A DNA stretch of 64,000 nt from Streptomyces specialis. GTDB lineage: Bacteria; Actinomycetota; Actinomycetes; Streptomycetales; Streptomycetaceae. The stretch spans positions 62,001 to 126,000 of the forward strand of contig NZ_LN929897.1 in the NCBI RefSeq assembly GCF_001493375.1, read 5' to 3'. Both the position numbers and the translations under genes were made by a program. This document shows, piece by piece, positions 13,453 to 17,172 of the stretch (position 1 is the stretch's first letter; each line of letters begins with the position of its first letter). Below the pieces are notes generated by a model. The model saw nothing but the letters and a program-made list of their open reading frames with translations. It had not been told where the DNA came from and did not search any database.

Positions 13453-14661
13453 TCAGATGTCGATACGGCGGAACTCGATCCGTTCGTACGGCCCGGCGGT
13501 GCCCGTCTCGAAGAGGACGCCGGTTGTGCCGTCGGCCAGCACGACCAGCTCCGAGTACGCCGCCGAGTCGGACGACAGCGTCAGGACCTCGGTGAACGTC
13601 CCGCCCCCGTCGTCGCTGCGCCACACCGTCAGCGCCCCCCGCGCGTCCGGGTCCGACGGGCCGGTGAACAGCAGCGGGCCGCCGTCCGGCCGGACCACGC
13701 TGCCCTGCACCACCGGCACGGCGTCGAGGTCGCCCTGCGCCGCGTACCCGCCGCCCTCCAGCGTCTCGCCGCCGTCCGCCGAGTACGCGCCCGCGCGGTT
13801 CCCCGGACCCGCGCCGTTCTGGTCGCGGGCGCTGAAGTACAGCCGCCCGTCGGGGAGTTCCGCGACGGACGACTCGTTGGCGTTGATCGTCCCGTCGTAC
13901 GAGCCGTCCACGTACCCGATCCGCCAGGTCTCGCCGCCGTCGTCGCTCAACAGCGCGTGCGCCCCGTAGTACCGCGGCTCCTCGCCCGTGTCGTCCGAAC
14001 CGGCGGGCGGCGCCGCCGAGTGGTTGGCGGGGATCACCAGCCGCCCCGCGTGCTCCCCGGCCGTCAGCGCCACGCCGTGGCCGGGACCGGTCGCGTACCA
14101 GCGCCAGTCGGGAAGCTTCACGTCCGCCGTGATCTCCCGCGGCGCGGTGAACGTCCGGCCGTCGTCGTCACTCGTCTGCGTGAAGACCCGGCGGCCGTCC
14201 TCCGGCGCCGTCGCGCCGCGCATGATGTCGGCCTCGGTCACCCCGCCGCCGTTGAACGACGTCAGCAGCACCACCCGTCCGGACGCCGGATCGACCACGG
14301 GCGCCGGGTTTCCCCGGGTGTCGCCCGCGCCCGCCGCCACCACGGTCAGCGGCTCCCACGTGCAGCCGCCGTCCAGCGAGCGCCGGACCACCACGTCGAT
14401 GTGCCCGGAGTCGCCCGCGCCGCCGACCCGGCCCTCGGCGAACGCCAGCAGCGTGCCGTCCGGCGTCGTCACCGCGGCCGGGATGCGGTACGTGTCGTAG
14501 CCGCCCTCGCCCGCGGCGAACGGCACGGACGACACGCACGCCGCCCGGGAGGAGCCGGGCCCGGAATCCGTCATCACCCTCACCACCGTCGCCGTCACAC
14601 CGACCGCGGCCACCGCCGCCGACACCACGAGTACCCGTCTGGCCCGGGAGGAGCGGAACAT
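13453..14661 (-). CDS. Secreted exo-alpha-sialidase (GH33-like)
   Basis: A 402-residue enzyme that should release terminal sialic acids outside the cell. An N-terminal signal or anchor (RSSRARRVLVVSAAVAAVGVTATVV) has no lipobox. The propeller shows YRIP near residue 57 with the first catalytic-triad Arg, and at least four Asp-box units (SLDGGCTW, SDDDGRTF, SDDGGETW, SADGGETL). A Glu in NESSVAELPDG, an Arg in YFSARDQ and the nucleophile Tyr in SAAYSELVVL complete a plausible active site. Upstream on the same strand lies an NAD(P)-binding gene with no evident link. Confidence 0.87.
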   Translation of the reverse strand: MFRSSRARRVLVVSAAVAAVGVTATVVRVMTDSGPGSSRAACVSSVPFAAGEGGYDTYRIPAAVTTPDGTLLAFAEGRVGGAGDSGHIDVVVRRSLDGGCTWEPLTVVAAGAGDTRGNPAPVVDPASGRVVLLTSFNGGGVTEADIMRGATAPEDGRRVFTQTSDDDGRTFTAPREITADVKLPDWRWYATGPGHGVALTAGEHAGRLVIPANHSAAPPAGSDDTGEEPRYYGAHALLSDDGGETWRIGYVDGSYDGTINANESSVAELPDGRLYFSARDQNGAGPGNRAGAYSADGGETLEGGGYAAQGDLDAVPVVQGSVVRPDGGPLLFTGPSDPDARGALTVWRSDDGGGTFTEVLTLSSDSAAYSELVVLADGTTGVLFETGTAGPYERIEFRRIDI

Positions 14662-14713: not shown

Positions 14714-15385
14714 TCAGCCCGGCGGGCGGGGCAGGACCGCCGCCACCGCCTGCGGGATCGGCGTCCCGCCGTTGGTCAGGTCCAGCGTCAGCCCGGCCGT
14801 GCCCGGCGTGTCCAGCAGCGCCATCAGCACCGCCGCCACGTCGTCCCGGGTCACGTCCCCGCGCGGCGCCTTCTCCGCGAGGTGCACCCGGCCCGTGCCG
14901 TGCCCGTCGGTCAGGCGGCCGGGCCGCAGGATCGTCCAGTACAGCCCGGAGCGGGCGCGGATCTCGGCGTCCGCGGCGCTCTTGGCCCGCAGGTACGCCG
15001 CGAACACCGGGTCGGTGCCAGGAGGCGGCTCCCCGTCCGCGTTCATGGACGACACCACGACGAGCCGCCGCACCCCGACCCGCTCGGCGGCGTCCGCGAA
15101 CAGCACGGCCGCCGCCCGGTCCACCGTGTCCTGCCGCGCCGCCCCGCTCCCCGGGCCCGCGCCCGCCGCGAAAACGGCGGCGTCGGCGCCCTCCAGGTGC
15201 CGGGCCACGTCGTCCACGCCCGCCGACTCCAGGTCGCAGACCACGGGCTCGGCCCCGGCCGCGAGCAGGGCCCCGGCCTGGTCCGGCCTGCGGATCAGCC
15301 CGGCCACCTGATCCCCGCGCCCGGCGAGCAGCCGTTCCAGGCGGCGGGCGATCTTGCCATGTCCTCCAGCGATCACTGTGCGCAT
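14714..15385 (-). CDS. NAD(P)-binding Rossmann-fold protein, SDR/NmrA-like
   Basis: A 223-residue atypical short-chain dehydrogenase/reductase. The N-terminus MRTVIAGGHGKIARRLERLL is the GxxGxxxx dinucleotide loop, followed by VVVSSMNADGEPPPG and the loop YLRAKSAADAEIRARSGLYWTILRPGRLTDG, where a Tyr-Leu-Arg-Ala-Lys segment resembles YxxxK. The substrate is unknown. The frame opens further upstream, but ATG 15385 gives the family N-terminus. It lies 35 bases downstream of the amidohydrolase-like gene on the same strand. Confidence 0.85.
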   Translation of the reverse strand: MRTVIAGGHGKIARRLERLLAGRGDQVAGLIRRPDQAGALLAAGAEPVVCDLESAGVDDVARHLEGADAAVFAAGAGPGSGAARQDTVDRAAAVLFADAAERVGVRRLVVVSSMNADGEPPPGTDPVFAAYLRAKSAADAEIRARSGLYWTILRPGRLTDGHGTGRVHLAEKAPRGDVTRDDVAAVLMALLDTPGTAGLTLDLTNGGTPIPQAVAAVLPRPPG

Positions 15386-15420: not shown

Positions 15421-16635
15421 CTATCCGGTCGCCTGACGGGGCAGCGCCGGCCCGCCGGGCGGCGAGGGCGGCGGGTCGCCGAACTCCCGCACCGCGCTCG
15501 GCCGTGCCACGATCCGGCCCCGGTGGATCACCAGCCGGCTGTACGCCAGGGACAGCGCCTCCGCGACCGTCTCGCCGCGCACCGCGAGCAGTTCGGCGGG
15601 GAACCCCGCGTCGATCCGCACCTCCGGCAGCCCCAGCGCGCCGCGCGCCCGCCCGCCGCCCGCCGCGTGCGCCCCGCCCGCGCCGCCCCCGCCCCGCGGG
15701 GCCAGCAGGAACGCGGCCTCCAGCGGATCGCCGCGCCCCACCGGGTTGGCCGCGTCCCGCAACGCCCCGCCGCCCGCCACGACGCGGACCCCGGCACCGG
15801 TGAGCAGCCGCACCGGCGTCGTCGCCCGTACCGGCCGGTGGCCCGGTGAGAGCGCGCACGGGCCCTGCGGCACGCAGACCACGGTGATCCCGGCCGCCGC
15901 GAGCCGGTCGGCGGCGCGGGCCGCCACGGCCGGGGGCAGCAGCGACAGGCCGGTGCAGGGGCCGATCGTCACCCCGGGCCGGTGCGCGGCGGCGGCGGAC
16001 GCCAGCCGGGCCAGCCGAGCCGGGTCGTCGCCCTCGGTGTGGAGGTCCACGGCGCGGCCGTGCTCCCCGGCGACGTCCAGCAGGACGTCGAGGGACCCGG
16101 CCGGGTCGGGGTCGAGGTCGGGGCAGCCGCCGAGCGCGTCGGCGCCCAGCTTGGCGGCGTCCTGCGTCTGGGCCCGGTTGTCGGCGCCGGCCAGGCCGGT
16201 CAGCAGCCGGGGCGCGGCCACGGTGGACAGGTCCGCCAAGCCGCGCAGCGCGCGCCGGGCGTCCAGGACGGCCTCCAGCGCGGTCAGCCCGAGCGCGTCC
16301 CCGACCCGGACGTGGCTGCGCTGGGCGGTGGCGCCGTGCCCGAGCTGGGCGAGCGCCGCCTCGGTGACGCGGCGGCGCAGGTCGCCCGGGGTGTCGGGCG
16401 GTGGCGCGGTCCCCGTCCCGGCGGCGGTCAGGGCCGTGTCGTGATGGGCGTGCGGCTCGACGGGCGCGGGCAGCAGCAGGTAGCCGGTGAGGTCGAGGCG
16501 CGCCCCGCCGTCCCCGTCCGGCGGGGACAGGCTGCCGGGGGTGCCCACCGCCTCGATCCGGCCGCCGCTCAGCCGCACGTCGACGGTCCGGCCGTCGACG
16601 AGCCGTGGTCCACTGAGTACGAGGCGCTCTGGCAT
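15421..16635 (-). CDS. Amidohydrolase-like protein, probably catalytically degenerate
   Basis: A 404-residue protein with the layout of cytosine deaminase-type amidohydrolases: a beta domain, PAPVEPHAHHD at residues 57-66 (metal-binding HxH), SHVRVGD at 107-113, VDLHTEGDD at 196-204, and NPVGRGDPLEAAFL at 297-310. Compared with E. coli cytosine deaminase as I recall it, the Glu after the third His is Gly (202), the next His is Pro (226, in IGPCTGL), and the metal Asp is Gly (288-290, VAGGGALRD). Residues 314-338 are Gly/Ala/Arg-rich and of low complexity. Hydrolase activity is therefore doubtful. It heads the minus-strand run with the Rossmann protein and sialidase. Confidence 0.78.
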   Translation of the reverse strand: MPERLVLSGPRLVDGRTVDVRLSGGRIEAVGTPGSLSPPDGDGGARLDLTGYLLLPAPVEPHAHHDTALTAAGTGTAPPPDTPGDLRRRVTEAALAQLGHGATAQRSHVRVGDALGLTALEAVLDARRALRGLADLSTVAAPRLLTGLAGADNRAQTQDAAKLGADALGGCPDLDPDPAGSLDVLLDVAGEHGRAVDLHTEGDDPARLARLASAAAAHRPGVTIGPCTGLSLLPPAVAARAADRLAAAGITVVCVPQGPCALSPGHRPVRATTPVRLLTGAGVRVVAGGGALRDAANPVGRGDPLEAAFLLAPRGGGGAGGAHAAGGGRARGALGLPEVRIDAGFPAELLAVRGETVAEALSLAYSRLVIHRGRIVARPSAVREFGDPPPSPPGGPALPRQATG

Positions 16636-16717
16636 CGCGTGCGAGCCTAGAGGGCGCTTGTCCCGGCCTTTACGGATTTCGCCTTACGGGTCAGAGCGTG
16701 TAATCTCTTGAGCGCTC

Positions 16718-16790
16718 GCCCCAATAGCTCAGTCGGCAGAGCGTCTCCATGGTAAGGAGAAGGTCAACGGTTCGATTCCGTTTTGGGGCT
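16718..16790 (+). tRNA. tRNA-Thr (anticodon GGT)
   Basis: A 73-base cloverleaf: acceptor GCCCCAA with TTGGGGC, D-arm GCTC...GAGC, anticodon stem TCTCC/GGAGA around ATGGTAA, T-arm AACGG/CCGTT, discriminator T. The CCA end is not encoded. A TAATCT hexamer at 16701-16706 may be the -10 box. Confidence 0.96.
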
Positions 16791-16839
16791 CTGAGGTGTG
16801 AGGTCTCCCTCGTGTGATCGCGGGGACCGCCCACCTCGT

Positions 16840-16912
16840 GGCGGCGTAGCTCAGTCGGTAGAGCAAACGGCTCATAATCGTTGTGTCACCGGTTCAAGTC
16901 CGGTCGCCGCTA
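16840..16912 (+). tRNA. tRNA-Met, elongator (anticodon CAT)
   Basis: A 73-base cloverleaf with acceptor GGCGGCG paired to CGCCGCT (first pair G-U), anticodon loop CTCATAA and T-arm ACCGG/CCGGT. The anticodon stem AACGG/TCGTT lacks the three G-C pairs of initiator tRNA, so this is the elongator. It is 49 bases after tRNA-Thr and shortly before rpmG. Confidence 0.95.
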
Positions 16913-17007
16913 CGTCACGTAGCCGATTACAGGGTTGGCCCTCTGATCGGCTACTCTCTCTGTGTTCAACCAGTGTTAAACCCGTCCATCCGTCAAGGAG
17001 CACTCAC

Positions 17008-17172
17008 GTGGCTGCCACCGACGTCCGCCCGAAGATCACGCTGGCCTGCGTGGAGTGCAAGGAGCGGAACTACATCACCAAGAAGAACCGGCGCAACGAC
17101 CCGGATCGCCTGGAGATGAAGAAGCACTGCCCGCGTTGCAACTCGCACACGGCTCACCGCGAGACGCGCTGA
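17008..17172 (+). CDS. rpmG: 50S ribosomal protein L33 (zinc-binding form)
   Basis: A 54-residue L33 of the large subunit. The two cysteine pairs, CVEC near residue 14 and CPRC near residue 43, make it the zinc-binding (C+) form. Start GTG 17008 has AAGGAG eight bases upstream and the frame is closed by TGA at 17170-17172. It follows tRNA-Thr and tRNA-Met, an order I recall from other Streptomyces. A long terminator hairpin follows. Confidence 0.95.

Follow-up and report, generated by a model that had tools for sequence, protein, structure and literature searches.

The window, a stretch of 64,000 nucleotides from Streptomyces specialis, carries a gene for an amidohydrolase-like protein that stands back to back with two tRNA genes and a ribosomal protein gene. 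The locus is arranged as follows, with counts referring to the 125 aligned orthologue rows defined below:

14714..15385, minus strand: NAD(P)H-binding gene (Pfam family NAD_binding_10), located downstream of the putative pseudoenzyme gene at a distance of 35 bp
15421..16635, minus strand: putative pseudoenzyme gene, 404 amino acids, amidohydrolase barrel, cytosine deaminase/AtzC-like
16644..16649, minus strand: TAGGCT, a -10-like element separated from the start codon by 8 bases
16718..16791, plus strand: tRNA-Thr, the divergent neighbour (124 of 125 rows)
16840..16913, plus strand: tRNA-Met (123 of 125 rows)
17008..17172, plus strand: open reading frame that we take, from its sequence, to be rpmG, ribosomal protein L33 (122 of 125 rows)

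The gene starts with an ATG at 16635 and is read as an open frame of 404 codons down to 15421. The NAD(P)H-binding gene lies downstream of 107 of the 125 copies within the fetched flank, 71 of these within 100 bp, and in the window it is possibly cotranscribed with the gene. We considered its product as a functional partner, a candidate weakened by the occurrence of both genes apart: the neighbor was not found within the fetched flank downstream of 18 of the 125 copies, and genome G074 has the neighbor alone. Farther downstream, past the NAD(P)H-binding gene, an open reading frame at 13453-14661 (minus strand) is sialidase/neuraminidase-like by eye, its product probably secreted. The available part of PMC7042404 gives SCO4636 as a UPF0336 protein; taking this as the gene after rpmG, the Streptomyces coelicolor orthologue should be SCO4634 by gene order. 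We found no paper in the open-licence literature on SCO4634/SCO4633 or on amidohydrolase pseudoenzymes in Streptomyces; for pseudoenzymes of the amidohydrolase superfamily in general, a single broad review came up, and among the matches listed for signature proteins or the rpmG context, nothing evident concerned this protein.

The protein matched the Pfam model Amidohydro_3 above its gathering score (39.6 versus 29.7 bits), and phmmer aligned it with the AtzC-like protein 6nbo and bacterial cytosine deaminases as the nearest solved sequences. Scores against the NCBIfam amidohydrolase and cytosine deaminase models (PRK05985, PRK07572, and PRK07583) fell far under the cut-offs (145 versus 408 bits for PRK05985); the PRK05985 cut-off was likewise not reached by L145 and L149, the two enzyme-like relatives scanned. 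An AlphaFold2 model built from 74 sequences (mean pLDDT 91.6, pTM 0.89; lowest confidence at residues 261-270 and the C-terminus) contained the barrel and small beta-domain of cytosine deaminase, and Foldseek and VIA placed it beside 6nbo, AtzC, and 1k6w. The fold is shared over nearly the full length with AtzC-type N-isopropylammelide isopropylaminohydrolases and bacterial cytosine deaminases (6nbo, 2qt3, 4cqb, and 1k6w; VIA Z 43.6-44.8, 23-31% identity), with Z 44.8 over 362 aligned residues (rmsd 2.4) for 6nbo and Z 43.6 for the Escherichia coli enzyme 1k6w. A preliminary description of this DNA, made from its letters, had reported, without naming a strand, an intact frame and otherwise preserved fold-defining segments and had proposed structure prediction with overlay on cytosine deaminase; the open frame, the confident model, and the overlays bear it out. 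The CRMP proteins (e.g., 4cnu and 4b90 in Foldseek), which are inactive relatives of dihydropyrimidinase, share the fold class at a TM of only about 0.55; they are human and belong to another branch of the superfamily.

For residue comparisons, loci L001-L112 and L141-L220 (192 in all) yielded 188 alignment rows after four broken or partial copies were dropped: 125 orthologues (124 distinct, L061 and L213 being one locus entered twice), 55 enzyme-like relatives, all with the full catalytic set, and 8 copies of a Yinghuangia/Embleya type (5 distinct). Orthologue rows were picked by the presence of Cys260 and the absence of Asp290, so that counts for those two columns are circular; 124 of the 125 rows are tied to the locus independently, through the adjoining tRNA-Thr. 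Among the dropped copies (L103, frameshifted; L104 and L112, cut at contig ends; L109, masked), residue 290 is Gly in the three in which it can be read (L103, L109, and L112), and the motif LPQGGC is present in three of three readable ones (L104, L109, and L112). The positions compared are the following:

16444..16452, minus strand: His62-Ala63-His64, codons that encode the first metal pair; His at both positions in 125 of 125 rows
16435..16437, minus strand: Thr67, a Lys in 55 of 55 enzyme-like relatives; Lys in 0 of 125 rows
16039..16041, minus strand: third metal His, His199; His in 125 of 125 rows
16030..16032, minus strand: Gly202, replacing the catalytic Glu; Glu in 0 of 125 rows (Gly 76, Ala 44, Leu 3, Ser 2)
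15958..15960, minus strand: Pro226, replacing the fourth His; His in 0 of 125 rows, Pro in 122
15856..15858, minus strand: Cys260, in a shortened loop after strand 251-254; the enzyme-like relatives have Leu here, 55 of 55 (rows chosen on the presence of Cys)
15766..15768, minus strand: Gly290, replacing the metal Asp; Gly in 125 of 125 rows (rows chosen on the absence of Asp)
15433..15492, minus strand: C-terminal stretch with V382-R383-E384 and P399-R400-Q401; all six residues invariant in 125 of 125 rows

The three metal His presumably correspond to His61, His63, and His214 of CodA. His62, His64, and His199 are present in every orthologue row and in all 55 enzyme-like relatives, whereas Glu202 and His226 are each found in all 55 relatives and in none of the 125 orthologue rows, a difference beyond chance. 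The two selection columns give 0 of 125 versus 55 of 55 for Asp290 and 125 of 125 versus 0 of 55 for Cys260. The available text of PMC11796326 describes the metal site as three His and one Asp and gives His214 and Glu217 of 1k6w as catalytic; by our own reading, the bacterial and yeast enzymes are swapped in that text. Compared with the catalytic cytosine deaminase/AtzC group, the protein thus has the three metal His but lacks the metal Asp that follows strand 8, the catalytic Glu three residues beyond the third His (Glu217 in CodA), the fourth His that follows strand 6, and the pocket loops. The enzyme-like relatives share 43 invariant columns. Of these, 21 persist in 97% or more of the orthologue rows, all three metal His among them, and 17 persist in fewer than 5%, a set that includes the catalytic residues and the loop that follows strand 7. 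The stretch after HxH is also shortened or variable in the orthologues, and by analogy with cytosine deaminase, the two shortened or lost loops would line the pocket. Fifty columns are invariant across all 125 rows, including H62, H64, H199, C260, VRE, and PRQ. In the model, His62 lies within strand 60-63 with His64 immediately after it, and His199 immediately follows strand 195-198; Pro226 is two residues past strand 222-224, Gly290 three residues past strand 284-287, and Cys260 six residues past strand 251-254. The active site of this fold is carried at such strand ends, and its loops at positions like that of Cys260 face the barrel mouth. The preliminary description had named the retained HxH pair and third His, the changes of Glu to Gly at 202 and of the fourth His to Pro at 226, and a metal Asp replaced by Gly at 288-290. 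All are confirmed by the codons, the last at 290, and its surmise that Streptomyces relatives share some of the changes holds throughout the family, the same losses recurring across the 125 rows. The alignment adds the invariance of the three His, the shortening or loss of two loops, and a new invariant Cys and C-terminal motif.

The distribution of the gene was followed in overlapping samples of genus, family, order, and class. Matches were detected in all 61 genomes sampled from the genus (a few as contig-edge fragments only), in 197 of 200 genomes of the family (E 1e-20), in all 104 same-genus genomes of the order sample, and in 41 of 196 genomes of the class (19 belonging to the window's family). 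Seven of the 197 family genomes (genera g2 and g5) are of the Yinghuangia/Embleya type, as judged by shared contigs, and match through other copies; the orthologue is present in at most 190 of the 200, by partial inspection of the genomes. The other two families of the order sample (15 genomes) gave 4 weak matches and 11 genomes with none (E 1e-15). Loci were fetched for 11 of the 22 class matches outside the family, and all 11 encode the full catalytic set. Sampled orthologues were thus seen in Streptomycetaceae only, and nearly all sampled Streptomyces and most close relatives carry the gene beside the same tRNA pair. A few Streptomyces also have an enzyme-like paralogue (L145, L146, L150, L151, and L156); like the copies in other Actinomycetota, these are recognisably homologous but retain the full catalytic set.

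A midpoint-rooted tree of 80 rows (35 of the 125 orthologues, the 5 distinct Yinghuangia/Embleya-type copies, and 40 of the 55 enzyme-like relatives) united the orthologues in a single branch with support of 100/100 on a long stem of 0.73. The nearest sampled enzyme-like proteins came from Allokutzneria and Kutzneria; the Streptomyces enzyme-like paralogues and the enzyme-like copies of other Actinomycetota fell on separate branches. The Yinghuangia/Embleya-type copies (L106-L108, L110, and L111, with L141-L143 repeating three of these) have Lys67 changed to Arg and Glu202 to Asp and have lost the loop after strand 7; they retain the fourth His and the metal Asp, and they group with Actinopolymorpha, apart from the putative pseudoenzymes. 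At first these copies looked like a half-way stage, with Glu changed to Asp and other residues kept. That candidate was rejected: a common clade with the orthologues had a log-likelihood 56.9 lower (p-AU 0.0019, the group having been named for the AU test after the tree was seen). Judged from the sequences, their changes are a separate, independent departure.

The Yinghuangia/Embleya-type copies had no rpmG or tRNA-Thr in their fetched flanks (up to 1.5 kb), and in seven of seven genomes of this type the tRNA-Thr/tRNA-Met/rpmG locus exists with no match to the gene across the flank that was fetched. Likewise, the fetched flank of this locus in a relative from the class sample (G290) does not contain the gene. 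These loci suggest that the gene came to its present place within Streptomycetaceae. Two of the Yinghuangia/Embleya-type genomes have another gene at the same place, divergent from tRNA-Thr (L117 1995-3119 and L119 1998-3161, both minus strand; 374 and 387 amino acids), which by eye is unrelated to the putative pseudoenzyme.

The family is under purifying selection. All 125 aligned orthologue rows are open frames, and dN/dS for this gene alone had a median of 0.175 and a range of 0.07-0.29 across 43 non-overlapping pairs (80-98.5% identity; one of 44 pairs was excluded for too few silent changes, and the doubly entered locus L061/L213 enters the set twice). Exceptions are few. In G074 the genome has no match, and its NAD(P)H-binding gene adjoins tRNA-Thr, so that one lineage or more can do without the gene; in G092 there is no match in the genome, including the 12 kb around the locus. 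The gene is thus missing from an otherwise conserved locus in both (L115/L222 and L221, respectively), and the two genomes could serve as natural knock-outs. The contig of G133 ends at the locus, the match in G169 has an internal stop, and the copy in G132 (76% complete) has a frameshift.

Upstream of the gene, TAGGCT was found in 105 of 124 orthologue loci (4.6 in shuffles) and GTACGACTA in 106 of 124 (0 in shuffles), and where the two occurred together in this order and range (90 loci), the gap between them was 35 bp in 81. The longer form GGTACGACTAWT is nearly unique per genome (e.g., L226-L229), its core standing 35 bp before TAGGCT in those 81 of 90 loci: G005, G054, G038, and G071 each have a single site, 160-330 bp before the gene's match, and a genome-wide scan of the window's genome returned zero sites. 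No such match was found in the listed g14 genomes. The looser GGTACGACTWWT matched in 61 of 121 genomes, one to three times each; many of these matches lie upstream of the gene, judged by coordinates without a site-by-site tally. A regulon recognized through GGTACGACTAWT was considered and is unsupported, four of five genomes having one site, before this gene, and the window's genome none. A scan for a consensus sigma-70 promoter gave 0 sites. The window's copy has lost the GTACGACTA site and kept TAGGCT alone; with this element 8 bases before the ATG, its transcript would be nearly leaderless. The same copy has departures at 8 of the 166 conserved columns, against a median of 2, and together with the lost site this suggests that constraint may be weaker in this genome.

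Taken together, the pattern of residue losses and retention, the single branch, the synteny, the purifying selection, and the conserved upstream element argue for a maintained pseudoenzyme and not decay, as the preliminary description had proposed; on sequence evidence, that proposal holds. Catalytic residues are lost and the gene is kept, a combination expected of an amidohydrolase pseudoenzyme. Hydrolysis has very probably been lost, and the protein is probably kept for another job. The reading we consider likely overall is that of a vertically inherited pseudoenzyme of the cytosine deaminase/AtzC branch with a binding role in place of hydrolysis. Under this model, one ancestor within the Streptomycetaceae would have had the gene beside tRNA-Thr, tRNA-Met, and rpmG with hydrolysis already dismantled through loss of the metal Asp, the catalytic Glu, the fourth His, the Lys after HxH, and two pocket loops. 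The barrel and the three metal His have stayed, and Cys260 and the C-terminal VRE...PRQ motif are specific to the family. Most likely, and most simply, a metal ion or small ligand would still sit at the three-His site, and the protein would work through binding, in sensing, storage, or scaffolding, with the C-terminal motif contacting a partner. Against this reading, the three His might persist for packing or stability, without metal; the lineage lacking the gene, the broken copies of G169 and G132, and the possibly weaker constraint on the window's copy also count against it.

A re-tooled enzyme seems to us unlikely, though it is the strongest competitor. Here, the three His with Cys260 (or Glu/Asp201) would form another metal centre for other chemistry, e.g., redox, lyase, or isomerase. 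The invariance of H62, H64, and H199 in all 125 rows, the newly arisen Cys six residues beyond its strand, and an acid (Asp or Glu) at residue 201 in 119 of 125 rows fit such a centre. However, the pocket loops are deleted or variable, and no acid, Lys, or Arg occurs at the columns where the orthologues reach 95% conservation or more and depart from the consensus of the enzyme-like relatives. A fuller version, in which the three His, possibly with Cys260, make a new centre in a Streptomycetaceae-specific metal or redox sensor or new-chemistry enzyme, with its own nearly genome-unique promoter element beside the tRNA-Thr, tRNA-Met, and L33 genes, is as a whole similarly doubtful.

Still less probable is a purely structural or assembly partner without metal, like the pseudo-dihydroorotase (pDHO) of Pseudomonas aspartate transcarbamoylase (ATCase). 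The available part of PMC7053772 offers the precedent within the superfamily, an inactive pDHO subunit that is nevertheless needed for ATCase activity, and the invariant, family-specific stretch at the C-terminus would suit such a role. Both are inactive-type proteins that are kept, although inactivity is a prediction for the Streptomycetaceae protein, which belongs to another branch of the superfamily and has no known partner. In the same part of that source, a fungal pseudo-DHO domain called homologous to the Pseudomonas subunit is without zinc ligands, whereas here the three His are retained in 125 of 125 rows; this sets the Streptomycetaceae family apart from pseudo-DHO. Nor was a constant partner gene seen, given the 18 copies with no NAD(P)H-binding gene in the downstream flank and G074, which retains that gene without the pseudoenzyme.

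We regard an ordinary working hydrolase whose shifted ligands are hidden by the alignment as highly improbable. Asp294 and Glu/Asp201 do lie near lost residues, but both positions are acidic in the enzyme-like relatives too, beside the canonical Asp and Glu; because Asp294 is invariant there next to the metal Asp, it does not stand in for that ligand at a shifted position. Nor are the ligands recovered by aligning the sequences differently: the lost residues come just past the predicted strands 195-198, 222-224, and 284-287. Furthermore, Pro takes the place of the fourth His in 122 of 125 rows, and two pocket loops are gone. Finally, a decaying gene or an accident local to this genome, for which the missing upstream element and the departures of the window's copy might speak, can be dismissed with near certainty, as the family copies are open, syntenic, and under purifying selection.

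A maintained pseudoenzyme at this locus would mean that Streptomyces and most of their sampled relatives keep, in a constant position next to core translation genes, a protein that automatic annotation would presumably label as amidohydrolase or cytosine deaminase even though it lacks the residues which that reaction needs. The family offers a clean natural experiment, combining a single loss of catalysis with the retention of three metal ligands and with new invariant residues, and in a genus as well studied as Streptomyces, a knock-out and a metal assay would be directly worthwhile.
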